Shown here piece after piece: positions 8,726-48,958 of a stretch of 64,000 nucleotides of DNA (position 1 is the stretch's first letter; each line of letters starts with the position of its first letter). The notes under the pieces are model-generated. The model had not been told where the DNA came from, did no database searches, and worked only from the letters and a program-made list of their open reading frames with translations. The DNA lies in contig NC_019673.1 of the NCBI RefSeq assembly GCF_000328705.1, forward strand, positions 8,133,501-8,197,500, read 5' to 3'. Position numbers and translations under genes: made by a program. This DNA comes from Saccharothrix espanaensis DSM 44229. Lineage in GTDB: Bacteria > Actinomycetota > Actinomycetes > Mycobacteriales > Pseudonocardiaceae.

Positions 8726-10237
8726 GGCAATGCCGCTAAGTTAGTGTCCTTACGGTAGAATTCAGCCATGGCGCGTGCTGGGCAGAAGAAAGCGTCGGTT
8801 GCGGTCGGCGAAGATGTCCGGCTTGTCGACCGGGTTTCGCTCGGTGTTCTGGCCGAGGTGGTTTCGCGGGACTTGATCGAGGAGGTCCTGGACGAGACCG
8901 GGAAACGCGAGCAGCGGACGCGTCTGCTTCCGGCGCATGTGATGGTGCGGTTCTGTCAAGCGATGTGCCTGTTCTTCGACGACGACTACGAGGAGGTCAT
9001 GCGGAAACTCGTCGGCTCGTTGAAGTCGATGGGTCGTGGCGCGGTGATGGCATGTTCCGTCGACCTCGGCGGTGGCGCAGGCACGGCAGCGTCTCGGGTC
9101 CGAGCCGTTGCGCGTGTTGTTCGAGCGGGTCGCGGTGCCGGTCGCCGGGCCGGGTGCCCATGGGGCATGGCTGAGGTCGCGGCGGGTCATGGCCGTGGAC
9201 GGTGTCATGCTCGATCTCCAGGACACGCCGGAGAATGTCGCGGAGTTCGGCAAGAGCGGAAACGACCACAAAGCAAGTGGGTTCCCCCAGGCGTTGGTGG
9301 TGGCGTTGGCCGAATGCGGGTCGCATGCGATCGTCGATGCCGTGATCAGTGGCTACCGCGGTGACGAGAAAGCCTTGTCCCGATCGTTGCTCGGCTCGGT
9401 CGAGGCCGGGATGCTGGTCACCGCCGATCGGAACTTCTACAGCTACTCGCTCTGGGAGGATTTCCTCGACACTGGCGCCGACCTGCTCTGGAGGATCGGC
9501 TCCGGGGTCGAGCTGCCCGTGCTGAAATGGCTTTCCGACGGCTCCTTCGACTCGATCCTGCTGAACCCTCAGGTCCGCGCCGGACGACGCCGACAGGTGA
9601 TCGCCGACGCCGCCGCCGGGAAGACCGTCAGCCCCGAGCAGGGATTCCGGGTCCGGGTTGTGGAATACGAAGTACCCGACCGGGAGGGCAACGGTACCGG
9701 CGAAGTGATCTGCTTGGCCACCACTATTCCGGAACCATCGGAAGCCACTGCCGCCGAACTGGCCTGGTGCTATCACCAGCGGTGGGAGATCGAGTCCGTT
9801 TTCAACGAGATCAAGACGCATCAACGCGGTAACGCCCGGATACTGCGGTCGAAATCGCCGGACATGGTCCGTCAGGAGATCTGGGCATTCCTGCTCACTC
9901 ATTACGCCATCCGCAGTCTGATGAGCCGGGCTGCCGACGAGGCCGATGTCGACCCCGACGAACTGTCCTTCATCCGCACTCTCCGCGTCGTCCGCCGCCA
10001 GGTCACCGCTCAGGCGGATTTTTCCCCCTGACCACCGCTGGCGAGCACTTGTCGACACCTTCGAGGAAATCCTCTGGAGACCCACACGAAGACGTCGCAA
10101 CCGTACCTGCGCTCGCGTTGTCAAACGCGGACGCCACAACTCCTACCGCGTCAAACGACCTGAACACCGCAGCATCAGGCATGACGGAACACCGACCATC
10201 AAGCTCCGCTCACCCGCCCTAACTTAACGGCATTGCC
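8726..10237 (+). mobile_element. IS4-family insertion sequence, decayed
   Basis: The element is 1512 bp with 19-bp terminal inverted repeats matching at 18 positions (GGCAATGCCGCTAAGTTAG at the left; the right end reads the same on the other strand with C changed to T). Its transposase frame is broken in three places. It is bounded by perfect 38-bp direct repeats, much longer than the usual 5-12 bp duplication, but long duplications are known from the IS4-superfamily elements IS1549 and IS1634. Confidence 0.85.
8768..10227 (+). pseudogene. IS4-family transposase, three frameshifts
   Basis: The N-terminal part (8768 to about 9033: MARAGQKKASVAVGEDVRLV through RKLVGSLKSMG) reads in one frame. 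The next few codons (SWRGD) read in a second frame and WHVPSTSAVAQARQRLG onwards in a third, so two single bases seem to be missing about 25 nt apart near 9030-9055. The catalytic part, including the Y-x-QRWEIE signature (CYHQRWEIESVFNEIK), is then open to 10031. The conserved C-terminus (RVVKRGRHNSYRVK) continues in another frame to 10227 after a T/C homopolymer at about 10020-10030. Unless these are sequencing errors or a programmed shift, the enzyme is dead. Confidence 0.85.
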
Positions 10238-10275
10238 GTATGGCCCGGTCGGAGACAACCACGACGGTGTCATAC
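10238..10275 (+). repeat. Right copy of 38-bp direct repeat flanking the IS4-type element
   Basis: Identical in all 38 positions to 8688-8725. The IS30-type element starts at the very next base, so this copy is sandwiched between the two insertion sequences. Confidence 0.9.
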
Positions 10276-11335
10276 GGTCATGGCGACAGCAGATTTGATC
10301 TCGCCCGTCGAGTAGTGGGGTCGTTCGTATGGCCGGTGGCCCGTTGTTGTCGTTCGAGGAGCGGGAGCTGGTCTCCCGGGAGTTGAGTCGGAACGCACGT
10401 TGTTCGACCCGTGTCCTCGGGACGCTTCTGGGTCGGCATCATTCGACGGTGGCGCGGGAGATCGCCGCGAACGGGGGCCGCCGTGGTTACCGGGCGGTGC
10501 GGGCGCAGTGCCGGGCGGCGGACAATCGTCGGCGGCCCAGGCTGCGTAAACTGGAATCGTCGGCCCGGTTGCACGATGCGGTGAACACCGGACTCCGGGA
10601 GAAGTGGTCGCCGCGTCAGATCGGCCGGCGGCTGCGCCTGGACCACCCGGACGACCCGGAGATGCGCGTGTCGCACGAGACGATCTACCAGAGCCTCTAC
10701 CTCCAGGCCCGGGGCGAACTGCGCACCCAACTGAAACTCGCGCTGCGCCGTGGCCGTGTCCAGCGGGTCGACCGCACCCGGCCGGCGGCCGCCCGCCAGT
10801 ACATCAAGGACATGGTCCGCATCAGCGACCGGCCGAAAGAGGCCGACGACCGCGCGGTCCCGGGCTTCTGGGAAGGCGACCTGATCATCGGACGCGGCAA
10901 CGCCTCGCAGATCGCCACCCTGGTCGAACGCACCACCCGATTCGTCATGCTGGTCCGCATCCCGCACGACCGCAACGCCCAACGCGTCGCCACCCTCCTC
11001 GCCCGAAAAATGGAGACCCTGCCCGAGTTCCTGCGCCGCAGCGTCACCTGGGACCAGGGCCGCGAAATGGCCCGCCACGCCTACTTCACCATCCGCACCG
11101 GCATCCCGGTCTACTTCTGCGACCCCCACAGCCCCTGGCAACGCGGCAGCAACGAAAACACCAACGGACTACTCCGCCAGTACTTCCCCAAAGGCACCGA
11201 CCTGTCCGTCCACACCCAGGCCGACCTCGACAAGGTCGCAGCCGAGATGAACGGCCGCCCCCGCCACACCCTCGACTGGCGCAAGCCAATCGAGGTCTAC
11301 AACGACCTGGTCAACACCCACACGTCGCCATGACC
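10276..11335 (+). mobile_element. IS30-family insertion sequence, apparently intact
   Basis: About 1060 bp, with GGTCATGGCGAC at the left end (10276-10287) and its complement GTCGCCATGACC at the right (11324-11335). An AC dinucleotide lies outside both ends, consistent with the 2-3 bp target duplication of the family. It carries one full-length transposase gene. It is inserted in the small host element, right next to the IS4-type copy. Confidence 0.8.
10329..11333 (+). CDS. IS30-family transposase
   Basis: The 334-aa DDE transposase has the N-terminal helix-turn-helix region typical of IS30 (RELSRNARCSTRVLGTLLGR, then STVAREIAANGG), the catalytic aspartates in GFWEGDLIIG and TWDQGREM, and the last acidic residue in the family-typical ENTNGLLRQYFPKGTD. 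Length and motifs are complete, so it may be active. The stop codon lies within the right terminal inverted repeat. Confidence 0.93.
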   Translation: MAGGPLLSFEERELVSRELSRNARCSTRVLGTLLGRHHSTVAREIAANGGRRGYRAVRAQCRAADNRRRPRLRKLESSARLHDAVNTGLREKWSPRQIGRRLRLDHPDDPEMRVSHETIYQSLYLQARGELRTQLKLALRRGRVQRVDRTRPAAARQYIKDMVRISDRPKEADDRAVPGFWEGDLIIGRGNASQIATLVERTTRFVMLVRIPHDRNAQRVATLLARKMETLPEFLRRSVTWDQGREMARHAYFTIRTGIPVYFCDPHSPWQRGSNENTNGLLRQYFPKGTDLSVHTQADLDKVAAEMNGRPRHTLDWRKPIEVYNDLVNTHTSP

Positions 11336-34931: not shown

Positions 34932-35537
34932 TCAGCTCTGGGGCAAGGTGGTCAACCGCCGACGCACATAGGCGAGATCGAGCGAACAGTGCTTGGCAAT
35001 CAGTTCATGCTTGCGCTTCAGCGGCTCTTCGACCACGGAGTCGTCGGTGACGTACACGACGATCAACGGTTTGAGTCGAGCGCTCACCGCGTTGTTGACC
35101 GCTGCCCACAGCAAGTCCCTGAAGGCGCGCGGCCGCCCCCAACAGACATAACGCTCCAGCGTCCCATCGGTCGCCACACAGTGCATCGGCTTCTCACGTG
35201 TCGAGCCGGTTTTGATCTTCCACGAATCGCCGAGCACCTGGGCGACGAACTCATCGGCAGGCGACAGCCGTTTCGTGGCGTATATCGCGTAGGAACCGAA
35301 GTTCTCCAGGGCACGGGCGTACTCCTTCAGCGGACCGTCCTTGAGCCAGACGCGCATGCCCTCCGCAGTGTAGTAGTCCGCCAGCTCACCTCCGATCGCC
35401 TCATCTTCCACCCATCGGGTGTAGTAGGCGGTCCGGCTGCGGATGGACACACCTTCCCAGTCCAACGATCCCACCTGGCGGTAGAGCTCGCGGATGACGG
35501 CCTCTCTGATGTCCTTCGGCATTGGGATCTCGGGCAC
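34932..35537 (-). CDS. Unrecognised protein, last gene of the defence operon
   Basis: I do not recognise this 201-aa protein. It is soluble, rich in charged and aromatic residues, with no signal peptide or membrane segment. Notable stretches are YRQVGSLDWEGVSIRSRTAY near the N-terminus, a basic middle (ATKRLSP, KIKTGSTREKPM) and a C-terminal RHELIAK-like stretch followed by YVRRRLTTLP. The GTG at 35537 lies seven bases after the vsr stop, with GAGGGG just upstream, so it belongs to the operon. In related operons this place is often held by an AIPR gene, which this is not. Codon use is less GC-biased than in the housekeeping genes. Confidence 0.75.
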   Translation of the reverse strand: MPEIPMPKDIREAVIRELYRQVGSLDWEGVSIRSRTAYYTRWVEDEAIGGELADYYTAEGMRVWLKDGPLKEYARALENFGSYAIYATKRLSPADEFVAQVLGDSWKIKTGSTREKPMHCVATDGTLERYVCWGRPRAFRDLLWAAVNNAVSARLKPLIVVYVTDDSVVEEPLKRKHELIAKHCSLDLAYVRRRLTTLPQS

Positions 35538-35544
35538 TAACCCC

Positions 35545-36294
35545 TCACTTCCGCCCTGACTTCACCGGACGGCCCAACGCGGTCGCGATCCGGTCGGCGA
35601 CGGCTTCCGGGTCCTCGTGCTCCCAGCACCGGATCACCGCCCATCCCCGCTCCGCTAGCGCCTGGTTGGTCTCGTTGTCACGCCTTTTGTTGTCGACGAT
35701 CTTCGTACTCCAGAACTCGGAGTTCTTCTTCGCCGGGCGGTGGTGCTCCTCGCAGCCATGCCAGAAACACCCGTCCACGAAGATCGCCAACCGTTCTTTG
35801 ACGAACACGATGTCCGCCGTCCGCCGCAGCTCCGGCAGCGGCCGCACCGACACTCGGTAGCGCAGGCCGCGCGCGTGGAGTTCAGCGCGTAGCTGGAGTT
35901 CTGGAGTGGTGTCCCGTCCCCGATTGCCCCTCATCGACGCCCGCACCTCGCGAGAGGACGCCCACGACTCGCTCGGGAGCGCCTCGTCCCGCACGAGCCC
36001 TCGCGAACGAGCTGTCTCCCAGCCTTCGGCGAGATTCGCGGACCGCGTGGAGTGACCGACCACGCCCAACGACTTCGAGACTGTGCGATCGCCCGCTCGC
36101 CACCGCAAGTAGGCGCGGACGGTCCCCGTTCCTTCCGACGCCTTGAGCAGAACGGAGCCTCGGGCGACCTGGCCCGCGCCAAGGTCCACGACCCGTCGAT
36201 GACCGCCGCCCGCCGCTTTGTCCTGTTCCGCCTCGACCAACGACCTCGACCGATCGGGCTTCGGTTTCCAGGCGCGAGCGGGCGGCCCGGTCAC
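35545..36294 (-). CDS. vsr: Vsr-type (very short patch repair) endonuclease with N-terminal extension
   Basis: The C-terminal part (about 120-249 of 249 aa) is a Vsr nuclease: ASMRGNRGRDTTPELQLRAE, the catalytic aspartate in TADIVF, FVDGCFWHGCEEHH with the zinc and active-site histidine/cysteine residues, and WAVIRCWEHE. Vsr nicks T:G mismatches left by deamination of 5-methylcytosine, or serves as a nuclease in restriction systems. The first 115 residues form an extra domain (VRAYLRWRAGDRTVSKSLG, then RSANLAEGWETAR) resembling small DNA-binding modules. The GTG at 36294 overlaps the methylase stop by four bases (GTGA). Confidence 0.88.
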   Translation of the reverse strand: MTGPPARAWKPKPDRSRSLVEAEQDKAAGGGHRRVVDLGAGQVARGSVLLKASEGTGTVRAYLRWRAGDRTVSKSLGVVGHSTRSANLAEGWETARSRGLVRDEALPSESWASSREVRASMRGNRGRDTTPELQLRAELHARGLRYRVSVRPLPELRRTADIVFVKERLAIFVDGCFWHGCEEHHRPAKKNSEFWSTKIVDNKRRDNETNQALAERGWAVIRCWEHEDPEAVADRIATALGRPVKSGRK

Positions 36295-37607
36295 GACCGG
36301 TTCTCGACGTCGTCGAGTACCGCCGCCACGGCCTTCGCGAACACTTTCGCCAGAAGAACGGGAACGGCGTTGCCCAGCTGTCGCATCTGCTCGCCGCGAG
36401 GACCGCACAGCTCCCAGTCGTCGGGGAAGGTCATCACCCGCGCCGTCTCGCGAACCGTCATGTACCGGTGCCGGTAGGTACTGGACCGTCCGGTTCCTTC
36501 ACGGGTATCCGTCAGCATCACCGACTCGCCGCCCGGCACACCGTGGACACCCGCTTTGACGGTCTTGGCCGGACGGTCGAGAACGTTCGGGGTGTGTCCG
36601 GGGTAGATCCGCGCGTCCGGCCAGCCGATGTGCTCCTTGAGCATTCCCTCGTGCTGCACCCGGTCCAGCCAGTCCCAGGGGACTTCCCGGAGTGGCACGG
36701 TGTCCTGGTCGCCCGCCAGGGCGTCGCGCAGTGTGCGCCAGGGCTTCAGCTCTCCGCGGTCCGCCTCGAACGGCAGCGGGCTCGCCAGCCCGTCCATGAC
36801 ACGTCGTTCGACGTGCTTTGGCACTCTGGGGCGCAGCTTGACTCCGTTGTGGCGGTCCCAGTACTCCCCGGACACCATCGAGCGGTGGAGCGCCTTCTCG
36901 GAATGGGTGGGCTTGGTAGCCTGTTTCAACAGATTCACGTCGATGTCGAGGTCACCCCTGAACCCGACGATGATGACGCGGTTCCGGATCTGCGGAACGC
37001 CGTAGTCGGCGGCGTTCACCGGAAACGCGAAGACCTGGTACCGCTCGGCGGAACGGGGGTCGCCGCGTTCTTCCTTGGCCTTGAGGATGGCGTCGTGCTG
37101 GAGCCAGCTGGCTTCGGGATCACGTTCCTCGAACGGGAACATGAGCTCCCGGGTGATGTAGTCGAAATACGGCCGGAAGGAAGGGCGGAGGAGGCCGCGG
37201 ACGTTCTCGCAGATGAACGCTTTCGGCTTGATCTCCCGGATGGCGCGGAACATCTCCGGGAACATGTTCCGCTTGTCCTCGTCGCCCTTCGCGATACCAC
37301 CCAGACTGAACGGCTGACACGGCGGCCCACCCGCCAGAAGATCGACCGCGCCCTCCAGGTAACCCATCTTGAGATCGCACACATCCCCGCGCACCAACGG
37401 GATCCGCAGATCACCCGGCTCGGGGATCCACTCCTCCTCACCCCTGGGGACGGCGCCGTTGGCCTCCAGGGTGTCACAGGCGTACCTGACGAACTCGTTG
37501 AGCAGCAACGGCCGGAAACCCGAGCGGTGGACCCCCATCGCCAAGCCCCCGCCGCCCGCGAACAGCTCCACCGACGTACGTCTCGGTGGACTCGGTTCAG
37601 CCGACAT
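36291..37607 (-). CDS. DNA (cytosine-5) methyltransferase
   Basis: Transfers methyl groups from SAM to C5 of cytosine in a specific sequence. All core motifs are visible in 438 aa: I (ELFAGGGGLAMG, 14-25), IV with the catalytic cysteine (GGPPCQPFS, C97), VI (ENV), VIII (QIRNRVIIVGFR) and X (QLGNAVPV). The region between VIII and X would set the target sequence. I took the ATG at 37607 because the protein then starts just before motif I. A GTG at 37676 would overlap the upstream stop by four bases, like the other junctions of the operon, and add 23 residues. It would protect self DNA in this system. Confidence 0.93.
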   Translation of the reverse strand: MSAEPSPPRRTSVELFAGGGGLAMGVHRSGFRPLLLNEFVRYACDTLEANGAVPRGEEEWIPEPGDLRIPLVRGDVCDLKMGYLEGAVDLLAGGPPCQPFSLGGIAKGDEDKRNMFPEMFRAIREIKPKAFICENVRGLLRPSFRPYFDYITRELMFPFEERDPEASWLQHDAILKAKEERGDPRSAERYQVFAFPVNAADYGVPQIRNRVIIVGFRGDLDIDVNLLKQATKPTHSEKALHRSMVSGEYWDRHNGVKLRPRVPKHVERRVMDGLASPLPFEADRGELKPWRTLRDALAGDQDTVPLREVPWDWLDRVQHEGMLKEHIGWPDARIYPGHTPNVLDRPAKTVKAGVHGVPGGESVMLTDTREGTGRSSTYRHRYMTVRETARVMTFPDDWELCGPRGEQMRQLGNAVPVLLAKVFAKAVAAVLDDVENRS

Positions 37608-37672
37608 GCCGGGGAGCTTACCGCGCCGCGCGACGGGCCTGATGTCCGCCGCGCGGCCGGCGCGACTCCCGG

Positions 37673-40531
37673 TCACATGTCGACGATCGCGTACAAAGGC
37701 TTCTCCGGAACCACCACTTGGTACACCAGCGGTCGACGATCAGCCGGGACCGCGCCGTCCGGCAACTGAAGCATGAGCGCCATCACCAATCTGGTGGGCC
37801 GACCGTCGGTCGCTAGCCCGGCATCCAGTTCGTCCTTCTTCATCACCGGGTAGAGGATCACGCAACCCGACTTCGACGTCCGGCCCTCGATGGTGGCGAT
37901 CGCCTCGCGGTGCGCGCTTTCCGAGTTGCCTCGGATGCTCTCGTCCCGACCGGTGGTCCGACCGTGCACGGTGAAGTTCCCGACGCCGCGGATGTCTACG
38001 GTCTTCCCGTTCTTCTGCTGCGGGAGCATGACGTGCCACCGGTCGATGACGTCCTCCGGGAGACTCGCGATCCACGCCAGGTCCGCGGCGAACGTCTCGG
38101 ACCTGGCCCACTCCAGCTGACTCAGGACCGACACCATGTCCTGGTGGGACACCTCACCGAGAAGCGCGTCGAACGCCCGGTTCCCGCCCCTGAGGGTGGT
38201 CTTCTCGCACGCGGCTTTCAGCAGCGGGACGCAGGCGTCGATGTTGCGGTCGAGAGCTTCCTGATCGGTGAGCAGCGGGTAGCCCGAGCTGGGTTCCTTC
38301 GTGCGACTGCGCCGCTCCACCAGTTTGGCGTTGTACATCTTGTTGGCCGCTGTCGGCCGGAGTCCGTGCCGGACAACCAACGGAGGGATGTCGTACGGGG
38401 TGAACACGGGGCGACCGTCGACCATCGTCGCGTACTGGCGCAGTTCGTCCCGGAAGTGCTCCTCGTCCCGACAAGCGGCCTCGAACGCATCTCGGACGTC
38501 GGGGGTGATGAACAACCGGACCAGGTCCCGGTACCCCTTGCGGAAGCCGAACCACCGCCCCATCTGCATGAGGGCCTCAGCATGTCCGACCTTCCGGGAG
38601 TAGTAGGTGGTGGTGAGCCCTTCGACGGTGAACCCCCGGGCCAGCTTGTTGCCACCGACGAGCACCCGCCACACCGACCTCTTGTCGAAGTCCAGGTCCT
38701 CCTGCTCGATGTCCCGGTCGCTGTTCACCACCAGGACGGGATTTCCGTTGGGCGCGATCTTGCGGACGGCCCTACCGAGGAAGCTCGTGAGGCCTGCGAA
38801 GTCGGCCGGCATCGGGTGCCCCAGACCGAGCGCCGCCGATACCGGTGCGAAGTCGTTGTCGAAGAGGGCCAACAGCCTGCCATGGGCACTTCCGCTCAGG
38901 TAGCCGGCCCCCTTCCACAGGTCTTGGATGGTGTCGGCGCGTGAGCGCTGCCCGGCCTTCCGCATGGTCTCGTGCACCAGCATCGTGTGGTGTTTGAACG
39001 GTCCGCCACCCGCATCCTCCCGGTACAGCTTGATCGCGGCGGTGAGGACGAACGAGTCGAGAGCGGCAAGGAGCTCGGCGTCGTCGTCCTCGTTCACACT
39101 CTTGTCGAGCAGCCGGAGGTGCGCCATCTCCTTCGAGTTGCGGAAGTCCCGCTCGACGTCCGGGTCGAGGTCGAGGTCGTGGAAGTCCTCCGCACCCATG
39201 TAGCCGAGCGGCCGTTCCAAGGAGATGAGGTAGTCCTTGGGAAAGATGTCCTCGGCGTCGGTGGGGTCGACGAAGACGTTCGCGAACGGGGTGGCCGTGT
39301 AACCGATGTACTGGGCGCGAGGAAGCAGGCCGAGCAGGTTGGCGAGGTGCTTGTTGATCGCGGTCCGCTCCCTCCGGTCCTCGTTCCACTTCTTCGGGTC
39401 CGTCGTGTTGACCGACGCCTGGTCGGACTCGTCGTCGATGATCAGCGCGGGGATGTTCTCCAACCGGTCCGCGGTGTTCTTCAAGTCCTTGACGAGGTTG
39501 TTGAGCACCGCGGTGTTCTTCTTCACGATGATCAAGCGGGCATCGCTGGTGAAGAGGTTGTCGGCGTGCCACAGCGGTTTGGTGCGATCCCGGCGTTCGA
39601 ACTCGAGAGCCGACCGCCCCTGCTGGAGCCGGCGGTAGTCGAACCGGCGGTTCGTCATGCGGTGGATGTCCGGCCTGCCGATTTCCGATGGCCAGGCGCC
39701 GTGTCGGACGAAGTGGTCACCGATCCAGTCCTCGTCGTCCAGGTAGTCGATGAACTGGGCCGCTTCAGGGTCGTTCTCCTCGGTACCGCGCAGGATGTTC
39801 TCGCGGCCGACCAGCTCCATGTCCACCCGGCGCTGGGTCTGTTCTCGCAGGAGGTTGGTCGTACCGGTCATCACGATGACGAGGCGGTAGCCGGCGTCGA
39901 TCGCCTTCGCGATGACACCGGTGAAGTTGGCGGTCTTACCGCTCTGCACGTACCCGACGACCAGGCCCTTGGTCTGACCCGCCTTGGCTCGCGAAGGGTC
40001 GATCAGCCGCTCCACCACACGCGTTGTGGCCGTATCGAGGTTGGCGATCGCGTCGGCGTGCCAACCGCGCCGCGCGCGCAGGTAGTCGACGTAGTGGCCC
40101 CAGTAGAAGTCGCGGGCTCGCTTGACCTCATCGGTGTACCAGGGATCCCAGGGGCCTGCGATCACCGTCGTCCCGTCGCCTTTCGCGAGCGGGAAGTTCC
40201 TGGCGATCTCGGCCGCGGTTTCGGCGTCGAGCTTGAGGCACTCGATCACCGTCGCCCGGCGTTCCTCGGTGTTCGGCTGGGTCTCGGCCGTCCACGGGTT
40301 GCCCTTGATCGGGGCGTTGTCCCACTTGGCGAGGTTCAGGTGGAGGTCGAGGCGCAACTTGTCGTCGGGGCCACCAGCCGAGAGGTGCTCACGCAGACGG
40401 GGCTCCGAGACATCCAGGTCGGGGTCGAGGTCCTCCGCTTCAACCTGGGCGCGTCGTACGAGACCTCGCGGGGCGCCGTCCTCCATCGCGCGCAACGCGC
40501 TGGTGTACGCCTGGATGAGCGAAGTGATCAT
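37673..40531 (-). CDS. Z1-domain helicase-like ATPase
   Basis: The 952-aa protein has a superfamily II helicase-like core: Walker A VVGYVQSGKT ending at residue 200, Walker B IIDDESDQAS, GYTATPFANVF (motif III region), GGNKLARGFT (motif V region) and QMGRWFGFR (motif VI with arginine finger), followed by the Z1 region. Z1 proteins occur almost only in operons with MutL/MORC-type ATPases, DNA methylases and nucleases and are taken to move or remodel DNA in antiviral restriction. I chose the ATG at 40531, which overlaps the upstream stop (ATGA) and follows GAGGGG; a GTG two codons earlier is also possible. Confidence 0.9.
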   Translation of the reverse strand: MITSLIQAYTSALRAMEDGAPRGLVRRAQVEAEDLDPDLDVSEPRLREHLSAGGPDDKLRLDLHLNLAKWDNAPIKGNPWTAETQPNTEERRATVIECLKLDAETAAEIARNFPLAKGDGTTVIAGPWDPWYTDEVKRARDFYWGHYVDYLRARRGWHADAIANLDTATTRVVERLIDPSRAKAGQTKGLVVGYVQSGKTANFTGVIAKAIDAGYRLVIVMTGTTNLLREQTQRRVDMELVGRENILRGTEENDPEAAQFIDYLDDEDWIGDHFVRHGAWPSEIGRPDIHRMTNRRFDYRRLQQGRSALEFERRDRTKPLWHADNLFTSDARLIIVKKNTAVLNNLVKDLKNTADRLENIPALIIDDESDQASVNTTDPKKWNEDRRERTAINKHLANLLGLLPRAQYIGYTATPFANVFVDPTDAEDIFPKDYLISLERPLGYMGAEDFHDLDLDPDVERDFRNSKEMAHLRLLDKSVNEDDDAELLAALDSFVLTAAIKLYREDAGGGPFKHHTMLVHETMRKAGQRSRADTIQDLWKGAGYLSGSAHGRLLALFDNDFAPVSAALGLGHPMPADFAGLTSFLGRAVRKIAPNGNPVLVVNSDRDIEQEDLDFDKRSVWRVLVGGNKLARGFTVEGLTTTYYSRKVGHAEALMQMGRWFGFRKGYRDLVRLFITPDVRDAFEAACRDEEHFRDELRQYATMVDGRPVFTPYDIPPLVVRHGLRPTAANKMYNAKLVERRSRTKEPSSGYPLLTDQEALDRNIDACVPLLKAACEKTTLRGGNRAFDALLGEVSHQDMVSVLSQLEWARSETFAADLAWIASLPEDVIDRWHVMLPQQKNGKTVDIRGVGNFTVHGRTTGRDESIRGNSESAHREAIATIEGRTSKSGCVILYPVMKKDELDAGLATDGRPTRLVMALMLQLPDGAVPADRRPLVYQVVVPEKPLYAIVDM

Positions 40532-41526
40532 GTCCACCCCTCGAACGTGCAGGCTGCTCGGATGACCTCCGGCGTCACGTGTCGATCAGTGAAGCCGTCG
40601 AGCCCGATCCGGTACCGGATTTCCGGGATGCGGTCGATGACGACACCCCGGGCTCGCAGGTCGTCCGGAGTGAGCCGGGGAAAAGTGTCGGTCACGAGGT
40701 AACCGCGACTGGCGGACCGCCGGGTCCAACGCGTGGTCAGGCGCTCTCGATGTTCATTCCGCCATCCGGCGTGCGTGAGCGCGTTCTCGAAGTCGTCCTG
40801 GTGCCTGCCCGGACCAATCCGCGCCGAGATGACCTTCACCAGGCCCGGCAGACTGGACCCGGTTCCCGCGCCCGCTGCGGTCAACTGGTGCGAAACCAAC
40901 CACAGCGGGCGTCCCACCTTGGGCACCATCTGGGTCAAGGACTCGATCCAGTGCATTCGCGATTCGGACGTCGTGGTCTTGACCTCGACGTCGAGTGCGG
41001 GAAGGCCGAAGTCGTGCTCCTCCGCCAGGCCGCCGCACCACGCTTCGACCGCGGTGGCAACGCCGAGCCCGTCCACCAACCCACCGAGGACGAGCAACTC
41101 GCCGAACAGACCGATCTCGCGCTCCCGCGACAGGGAGTCAGGTGTCCTCAGCAGGGACGACATCCCGTCGAGGGTCGCGCGCAGCGCACGGGCCGGCGAC
41201 ATCCTCCCGAGCTGGACCCGGTCCGCCACGGAGCAGAGCACCGGGTAGGCATCGTGGAAGAGCTCCGGAGCTGTCACGACCACTTCGAAGTATCGCCTCC
41301 CATCGCGGAAGGCGATCCTGGCGAAGATGTTGCGCAGTCCGGTATCAGGGGCGTCGCCCTCGGCCCCGATCTCGATCCGCAGTCCCAGTTCCGGCACCCT
41401 GGGTTCGATGAAGATCAGCGTCGCCGGCGCACCCGCGACCGGCAGCGCGACAGGCACTCCGCCACCGAGCAAGCGGTCGAAGTTCTCGGCCGAGACATGG
41501 CGCTTGTCGATCGCCCCGTCGGTCAT
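40528..41526 (-). CDS. PD-(D/E)XK motif protein (DUF4420 type)
   Basis: The 332-aa protein fits the DUF4420 family of restriction-type nucleases. The sequence IGLFGELLVLGGL carries a conserved glutamate (E143), and LDVEVKTTT supplies the D179-x-E181-x-K183 signature of a PD-(D/E)XK active site; a downstream SESRMHWIESLTQM stretch is typical. It is a good candidate for the DNA-cutting subunit of the operon. Both ends overlap neighbours by four bases (ATGA at 41523-41526 and at 40528-40531), so it is translated with the GHKL and Z1 genes and probably acts in a complex with them. Confidence 0.85.
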   Translation of the reverse strand: MTDGAIDKRHVSAENFDRLLGGGVPVALPVAGAPATLIFIEPRVPELGLRIEIGAEGDAPDTGLRNIFARIAFRDGRRYFEVVVTAPELFHDAYPVLCSVADRVQLGRMSPARALRATLDGMSSLLRTPDSLSREREIGLFGELLVLGGLVDGLGVATAVEAWCGGLAEEHDFGLPALDVEVKTTTSESRMHWIESLTQMVPKVGRPLWLVSHQLTAAGAGTGSSLPGLVKVISARIGPGRHQDDFENALTHAGWRNEHRERLTTRWTRRSASRGYLVTDTFPRLTPDDLRARGVVIDRIPEIRYRIGLDGFTDRHVTPEVIRAACTFEGWT

Positions 41527-43073
41527 TGGCGCTCGGCCCGTGCCGCCGCCGTCAGGATCGTCTGCCACAGCGCGATGTTGTCCTTGTCCTTCGGCCCGAG
41601 GTGACTGCCCTCGAACACGTTGGAGACCAGAAGGTAGAGCAGCGACTTCAGCAGGGGAAGATCGTTGAGGCCGCCGTGCTTGCCGCCGAGCAGCATCTTG
41701 CGGTACCGCTTGTTGAGCCACAAGGTGCGCCGGTCGCGGTCGACGTGGAACAGCAGGTCGTCGGTGAAGGTATCCCAACGGATGTCGACGGGGTCCTCGC
41801 CGGCCCTCTCCGGGATCTCACGCTTGATTGTGTCGCGGATCCTGGGTGGCAACCCTGAGCCCGGGTAGACCATCGGCGTGCGTTTGGCCGTCCGCTTCCT
41901 CGACTCCGTGTACACCGCCTCGGCCAGGTCGAAGTACTCGTCGAGGCCAAGCCCATCGGCCGATCGTGCCGAGGCCGCCAGTCGCGCGAACTCCGGCCCC
42001 ACGTTCACTCGGGACTTCTCCGGGTTCATCTGGAACAGACCCACGACGTCGTTGTCGATGTCCACCTCGACGCGCGCCAACCTGAGCTTCGGGCTGGGTG
42101 CGTGCACACCCTCCCAACCGCCGGCCTGCAAGAGGCGGTCCCGCCGGTAGAAGTAGAGGCCCTGGTGGTTCACCGGGTTGCCGGTCAACTGGAAGGAGGC
42201 GGTTCCCGACTGGCCAGGCCACAGGTGGCAGCGGAAAGCCAACTTCAGGCCGTTCTCCTGGGCTGTCAGGGTCCGGGGGAAGTCCGACCGACCCGAGCGG
42301 CCATAGCCGAACGGGTTGAGGGGTGTGACCGGAATCTGCGGGCCTGCCAGCCCGGTGTCGACTTCGTAGACGTCGAAGTCGACGCTGAGCCGGCTTTGTT
42401 CGAGGAATCGGTGGAACACCATGCCGATGTGCTGACAGGCGCTGGTGATCGTGGTGTCGATGAACTCGTCGATCCGGCGCTGGGCATCGGTTGCCGGGAA
42501 AGCGACCACGTCGTCCCAGCGAACGACGGTCCCACTCTCCACAAGATCGATGCGCCAGTCTCGCCGCAGCTCCGATTCGGCGAACTCGCCCGGTACCACG
42601 TCACATGCGAAACCACGCCCGCCACCGGCGTCCAAGCGCCAACGCCTGCCGACCGCCTGTCGGCCCTCCGCCCGCGACATCACTGACAGGCTCCGGGCTT
42701 GACTGAACGACGCCGCCTTGAGACCCAGCCCGAAGTGGCCGAGGTCCCCGTTGCCGTACTCCCGTCGTCCGCCCACCGTCATCGCCGAGTCGATCACGTC
42801 GGGAGACATGCCGCGACCGTTGTCCACCACATACAGCGAAGTCAGTCGCCCCCCGGCCTTGACAAGGCGGATGAGGACCTGCGTCGCCCCCGCGTCGATC
42901 GAGTTGTCGACGAGGTCGGCGAGAGCTGTGGCCAAGGAGTGGTTGCGACCGATGGCGTCCATCGCCCGAGGATCAGGAGGCAGTTCGATGCTGCCTTCGG
43001 TCGGCACGGTCAGGCTCCACTCGATCACCGGCTCCACCCCTACTCGCATCGGGCGCGACGACACACCAGGCAT
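41523..43073 (-). CDS. GHKL (MutL/MORC-like) ATPase
   Basis: The 516-aa protein begins with a GHKL ATPase domain: the N-box ALADLVDNSIDAGA (50-63), DNGRGM (84-89) and the lid GDLGHFGLGLKAA (109-121). The residue that is usually a catalytic glutamate in ELxxN is aspartate here (D53). After a transducer-like region, the C-terminal half is not assignable. MutL/MORC-type ATPases clamp onto DNA and are the hallmark of Z1-linked restriction systems. It is the first gene of the operon; the ATG at 43073 has no ribosome binding site, and an internal ATG at 43049 is a second possibility. Confidence 0.88.
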   Translation of the reverse strand: MPGVSSRPMRVGVEPVIEWSLTVPTEGSIELPPDPRAMDAIGRNHSLATALADLVDNSIDAGATQVLIRLVKAGGRLTSLYVVDNGRGMSPDVIDSAMTVGGRREYGNGDLGHFGLGLKAASFSQARSLSVMSRAEGRQAVGRRWRLDAGGGRGFACDVVPGEFAESELRRDWRIDLVESGTVVRWDDVVAFPATDAQRRIDEFIDTTITSACQHIGMVFHRFLEQSRLSVDFDVYEVDTGLAGPQIPVTPLNPFGYGRSGRSDFPRTLTAQENGLKLAFRCHLWPGQSGTASFQLTGNPVNHQGLYFYRRDRLLQAGGWEGVHAPSPKLRLARVEVDIDNDVVGLFQMNPEKSRVNVGPEFARLAASARSADGLGLDEYFDLAEAVYTESRKRTAKRTPMVYPGSGLPPRIRDTIKREIPERAGEDPVDIRWDTFTDDLLFHVDRDRRTLWLNKRYRKMLLGGKHGGLNDLPLLKSLLYLLVSNVFEGSHLGPKDKDNIALWQTILTAAARAERQ

Positions 43074-43468
43074 GTGTATCGCGCTGTATCCGATATAGCC
43101 GATGATGAGCGTCTCGTTACCGGACGTTACCAAGTTGAAGCGGATCCCGGCTGAACAACGCGGAAGAGAGCAATGCGTTATAATACGCCGCTCCGGCGGC
43201 GTCACTGGCCACAATGAGCCCACGTCAGGTCGTATACCAATCGACTCGCGAGCACGCGAGGAAACCGCACTTACACGAAACCCACTGGCTCACCAGCATC
43301 TCACTCAGTCCTATGTGGACACGCCTACCCCGGAGCCCGCTCGGATGCGAAGGAAATCGTTTCGGCGAGACACTCCGATCGACGCGCCCCGGCCTGGGCG
43401 CACCTGGATACGCGGTCTCCAAGTTCGCCCTCTGCCGAGGTGACGACAAGCCTCCGACACTCTCAATG
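43074..43468. other. Upstream region of the defence operon
   Basis: 395 bp without a convincing gene, markedly AT-richer than average at 43080-43200. On the minus strand it contains GGCTATATCGGATACAGC (about 43080-43097), a possible promoter of the defence operon. The right side approaches the 3' end of tRNA-Arg; I found no integrase gene and no second copy of the tRNA 3' end. Confidence 0.4.
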
Positions 43469-43505
43469 ACAAAGCGCCTGGTCACACTGTGACCAGGCGC
43501 TTTGT
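43469..43505 (-). terminator. tRNA-Arg terminator
   Basis: A nearly perfect palindrome (ACAAAGCGCCTGGTCACA at 43469-43486 with its complement at 43488-43505) lies nine bases after the tRNA 3' end, bounded by AAAG/CTTT. It is symmetrical and could stop transcription from either side. Confidence 0.85.
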
Positions 43506-43513
43506 TATTCAAG

Positions 43514-43585
43514 TGCCCCCGGCAGGATTCGAACCTGCGCACCCGCCTCCGGAGGGCGGTGCTCTATCCCCTGAGCTACGGGGGC
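43514..43585 (-). tRNA. tRNA-Arg (anticodon CCG)
   Basis: 72 nt fold into a complete cloverleaf on the minus strand: acceptor GCCCCCG/CGGGGGC, D arm GCTC/GAGC, anticodon stem CCGCC/GGCGG with loop CTCCGGA (anticodon CCG, reading CGG), and T arm CAGG-TTCGAAT-CCTG, discriminator A. CCA is not encoded. An 11-bp piece of its 5' end (AGCTACGGGGG) recurs at 43589-43599. Its 3' end points to the defence island, and tRNA genes are common integration sites. Confidence 0.96.
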
Positions 43586-47763: not shown

Positions 47764-48958
47764 GTGGCTTGTCACGCAGCGTTGGCCGGGTAATGGGTCC
47801 AGGTGCGGATGGGCGAGTCGGTGGCGAAACGGGTCTTGGGCTGGGCTTGGGCGTTGCGCCAGCGGATGAACGAGGCGATGGCGGCGTTCTGCTCGGCGTG
47901 GGTGAGGTGGTCGGTGCCGTTGAGGGCGAAGTAGCGCAGGGCGGCGAACTCCGCCTCGATCCAGTTCAGCCAGCTCGAGTAGGTCGGCAGGAACACCAAC
48001 TCGGTGTCGTTCTCGGCGGCCCACTCGCGGACGTCGGGGTGCCGGTGCGGGGAGAAGTTGTCCATGACCAGGTGGAGCCGCTGGTCGGGCCAGCGGGCGC
48101 GCAGGGTCTTGAGCAGGTCGAGGAACTCGGCGTGGCGTTTGCGGCGTCGGATCCGGTAGTGGATCTTCCCGGTGGTCAGGTCGAGTGCGGCGAGCATGTG
48201 CATCACGCCGTGGTGACGGTTGTAGGTGGCCCGTAATCGGCGTGGTGACCCGGCGGGCCGCCACGCTTTGCCCTTGCGCGGCATCAGGTTCAGCGGTCCG
48301 AACTCGTCGACGCAGATCACCCGCCCGCCCTCGGGCGGGTGATCGTAGAGGTCGAGGATCCGCTGCATCCTGATGACGAAGTCCGGGTCGGTGGAGGCCT
48401 TCCACGTGGTGGTGCTCTGCCAGGAGACGCCGCCGGCGCGCAGGATGCGGCGCAGCGTTTCCCGGCTGATCGCGGCGACGGTGCCGCGGTCGAGCAGGTG
48501 GTCGCGCAGCTTTGCCAGCGACCAGGTGGAGAACGCGGTGATGCCCCAGTCGGCGGGCGAGGCCCGGGCGATCAGGCGGATCCGTTCACGGATCGCCTCA
48601 CCGATCGTCCGACTCCGCCCGCCCCTCCATTTTGGGTCCAGGGCAGCGAACCCCCGCTCGTTGAAGGCGTGGATCACATCACGCACGTAATCGGCGCTGA
48701 CCTGCATCAACGAGGTGATGTCCGGGACTGCTTGGCCCTGGCCGGACATCAGCACCACGATCGCCCGCCGCAGCCGCACCGGGTCCTTCGAGGTCCTGGT
48801 GATCCGCTGAAGCTTCCGGCCCTCCTCCATCGACAACGGCCGGACGAACACGCTCGGTTGACGAGCCACAGCCACCTCCCGCACTCGACATGCGGGATCA
48901 GCCTGGCCGATCAGCCCACAGGGCTGATTACCGGGTCAACCCTCCGAGACACAGCACT
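47764..48958 (-). mobile_element. IS630-family insertion sequence
   Basis: 1195 bp inserted into the IS481 relic. Both flanks read CTAG (47761-47764 and 48958-48961), consistent with the TA target duplication of this family. The ends form an imperfect inverted repeat: TGGCTTGTCACGC with GTTGGCCGGGTAAT on the left, TGCTGTGTCTCGG with GTTGACCCGGTAAT on the right, read inwards. Confidence 0.85.
47772..48884 (-). CDS. IS630-family transposase
   Basis: The 370-aa protein is complete. It has an N-terminal helix-turn-helix domain (about 15-120), the DDE residues in VDEFGPL, HLVMDNFSPHR and SWLNWIEAEF, and a normal length for the long, single-frame IS630 type. The GTG at 48884 lies just inside the element's end; a second GTG four codons later (AVARQPSV) is also possible. 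It may still be able to transpose. Confidence 0.92.
   Translation of the reverse strand: MREVAVARQPSVFVRPLSMEEGRKLQRITRTSKDPVRLRRAIVVLMSGQGQAVPDITSLMQVSADYVRDVIHAFNERGFAALDPKWRGGRSRTIGEAIRERIRLIARASPADWGITAFSTWSLAKLRDHLLDRGTVAAISRETLRRILRAGGVSWQSTTTWKASTDPDFVIRMQRILDLYDHPPEGGRVICVDEFGPLNLMPRKGKAWRPAGSPRRLRATYNRHHGVMHMLAALDLTTGKIHYRIRRRKRHAEFLDLLKTLRARWPDQRLHLVMDNFSPHRHPDVREWAAENDTELVFLPTYSSWLNWIEAEFAALRYFALNGTDHLTHAEQNAAIASFIRWRNAQAQPKTRFATDSPIRTWTHYPANAA

Follow-up and report, generated by a model that had tools for sequence, protein, structure and literature searches.

The six-gene operon of Saccharothrix espanaensis DSM 44229 described here, located entirely on the minus strand at positions 34932..43073 of the analysed 64-kb stretch of DNA (the window), ends in a gene for a 201-amino-acid (aa) protein of an undescribed family. 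Members of this family are found in a second DNA-cutting system as well, one that is powered differently, which leads us to suggest that the protein is a working component shared by the two. The operon itself is probably an anti-viral DNA-cutting system, of a type already known as a published prediction; what is new is the 201-aa subunit common to both systems and the modular split. The genes of the operon are as follows:

41523..43073, minus strand: GHKL (MutL/paraMORC-like) ATPase, MzaB-like; ATG start, 516 aa
40528..41526, minus strand: PD-(D/E)XK nuclease, DUF4420, MzaD-like; ATG start, 332 aa
37673..40531, minus strand: third gene of the operon
36291..37676, minus strand: C5 cytosine DNA methyltransferase; 461 aa from a GTG start (GTGA overlap), or 438 aa from ATG at 37607
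35545..36294, minus strand: Vsr-type endonuclease, extended N-terminally by ~100 aa; GTG start, 249 aa
34932..35537, minus strand: 201-aa protein, undescribed family

An initial sequence-only reading had recognized six genes on one strand, which is confirmed by Pfam, PADLOC and TIGR matches and by the overlaps joining the nuclease gene to the GHKL gene (ATGA) and the Vsr gene to the methylase gene (GTGA). The GHKL ATPase matches Pfam HATPase_c_3 (6.4e-23) and MzaB models of PADLOC (1.5e-32) and NCBIfam (2.9e-39, yet its 134.8 bits fall short of the 850-bit cut-off). Its N-box (as D-L-V-D-N, with D rather than E as the acidic residue), DxGxG and GLGLK motifs are kept across 12 loci, and the E...D...ExK residues of the nuclease (Pfam DUF4420, 2e-37; PADLOC MzaD, 6.6e-13) in 12/12. 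The methyltransferase (Pfam DNA_methylase, 7.2e-51) has an unbroken PCQPFS motif, and the Vsr-type protein exceeds the cut-off of TIGR00632 (7e-33) and, in its 249-aa form, matches Pfam Vsr (2.4e-16). Pfam reveals no target-recognition domain in the operon's restriction proteins other than the 201-aa protein.

The 201-aa protein combines a helical N-terminal half, carrying a conserved R-x-W-x-K-D-x-P-x-K-x-Y-x-R stretch, with an alpha/beta C-terminal half; the protein matches the restriction endonuclease-like (RE-like) fold weakly. Ten residues are invariant among 17 family members (W27, L52, R62, K66, D67, K71, R75, K116, P117 and L142); with a single acid among them, the catalytic D...(D/E)xK of the PD-(D/E)XK superfamily is absent. 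Homologues also accompany a GHKL + Mrr-helicase system with a different motor and nuclease, the GHKL ATPase of which has no PADLOC match. Both systems draw from one methylase pool, and the second occurs also on plasmids of Alphaproteobacteria and Deinococcus. PIN_8 genes are present in 4 of 12 second-system loci, directly behind the 201-aa gene on Ruegeria and Pseudosulfitobacter plasmids.

Several observations concern the surroundings of these genes. Some second-type loci have a protein of ~440-480 aa after the 201-aa gene (L039:7405-8733, minus strand; L092:5715-7157, plus strand); the former matches sigma-70 region 4 (9.8e-9), the latter is similar by eye, and both recall the sigma-like MzaA. 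On Deinococcus plasmid pDrdI (L097:6661-17170), the second-type operon has neighbours annotated as nucleotidyltransferase, E2/UBC, Mov34/MPN and SAVED, and likely lies in a defence island. The S. espanaensis genome also encodes a 446-aa PIN_8 protein (L009:1450-2790, minus strand; C1 near 4319 kb; PIN_8, 7.9e-77), whose two visible neighbours resemble a transporter and a peptidase.

What the 201-aa protein does can be proposed tentatively: the reading we favour, at somewhat short of even confidence, is that of a putative subunit with a coupling rather than a catalytic role in restriction machines driven by GHKL ATPases. It might instead be the DNA-specificity subunit, which would recognize the methylase site in its unmethylated state and bring the GHKL ATPase, motor and nuclease to it, as the B3 domain does in R.CglI. 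By Pfam the six-gene system has no other evident sequence-reading domain, both systems share one pool of methylases, and RE-like folds often bind DNA, weak as the match to the fold is here. However, second-system homologues stay while the methylase switches between subfamilies 37-47% identical, and divergence of the 201-aa protein tracks GHKL more than methylase; we consider this role rather unlikely.

That the 201-aa protein activates or inhibits a PIN_8 arm cutting RNA, as an effector or inhibitor, appears improbable. The systems would then be partly abortive, with GHKL sensing DNA damage or phage and releasing the RNase. This agrees with the PIN_8 genes of the second-system loci and with the recurrence of the 201-aa C-terminal domain at the C-terminus of the 446-aa PIN_8 protein (E 2.5e-11, 1.7e-14 and 2.5e-19). 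It is similarly doubtful that the operon is mainly an epigenetic and repair set, in which a solitary methylase, Vsr and a MutL-like ATPase mend deaminated 5-methylcytosine and no restriction system exists, although methylase and Vsr move together (r 0.80 and 0.96) and MutL-like proteins aid Vsr in E. coli.

The operon is bordered by the following elements:

43465..43509, between operon and tRNA-Arg: inverted repeat, 22-nt arms, 95% complementary; probably the terminator of tRNA-Arg
43513..43585, minus strand: tRNA-Arg (CCG), immediately upstream of the operon; an edge marker outside the system

Transposase-like frames were noted in the window by eye only: two at 9072-11333 and one, IS630-like, at 47772-48884.

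A small subunit common to systems with unlike motors and nucleases would offer a direct handle on GHKL ATPase coupling. How the MutL/MORC-like GHKL ATPases of bacterial restriction operons are coupled to DNA cleavage was put forward as a prediction in 2008 (PMC2292703). The 201-aa gene can also serve as a marker for locating the GHKL + Mrr-helicase system, including its plasmid-borne forms.

The sequence-only reading had proposed an Mza variant lacking AIPR, with a new terminal protein, an interpretation that is supported in part. With Mza (mzaABCDE) the operon shares MzaB-, MzaD- and MzaC-like proteins, whose genes follow that order in S. espanaensis, and it carries methylase, Vsr and the 201-aa protein besides. 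The MzaB-, MzaC- and MzaD-like proteins are homologous to their Mza counterparts but not equivalent, because they match in PADLOC (1.5e-32, 3.9e-61 and 6.6e-13), yet score far under the NCBIfam equivalog cut-offs (134.8/850, 256.2/1500 and 83/420 bits). AIPR, which we take to be MzaE, is indeed absent: PF10592 has no match in the genome, its control having matched in 1 of 14. Sigma-factor-like MzaA has no PADLOC or NCBIfam match in the six proteins, the presence of an MzaA model in either library being unchecked. The terminal protein belongs to an undescribed family, which is not confined to this operon type.

CglI/NgoAVII, as far as the available excerpt describes them (PMC4267653), comprise three genes only, without GHKL ATPase, Vsr or 201-aa protein, and use a PLD-type nuclease with a B3 domain. 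Eco29kI-type restriction-modification systems with Vsr are comparable in their methylases: ours is 50-66% identical to those beside Eco29kI-like GIY-YIG nucleases (6/6 stand-alone loci). Five Eco29kI-like protein queries found no such nuclease in the window, and PF09517 had no match in the genome, though controls likewise gave none. HEF_HK/Response_reg_2 loci also place paraMORC-linked GHKL proteins beside C5 methylases, often with Vsr, but are defined, in the part of the source at hand, by a response-regulator-like protein (PMC8011034); neither this domain nor HEF_HK has a Pfam match in the six proteins. The operon also corresponds to the MORC/paraMORC restriction-modification operons predicted by Iyer, Abhiman and Aravind in 2008 (PMC2292703). 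These share the GHKL ATPase, C5 methylase and Vsr, together with an E-D-ExK protein of the RE fold and a superfamily II protein whose motif is of the Q-x-x-R-x-F-G type; the present operon has the GHKL motifs, superfamily II helicase, E-D-ExK RE-fold nuclease, methylase and Vsr, and their Rad25-helicase/RE-fusion class resembles the second system found here.
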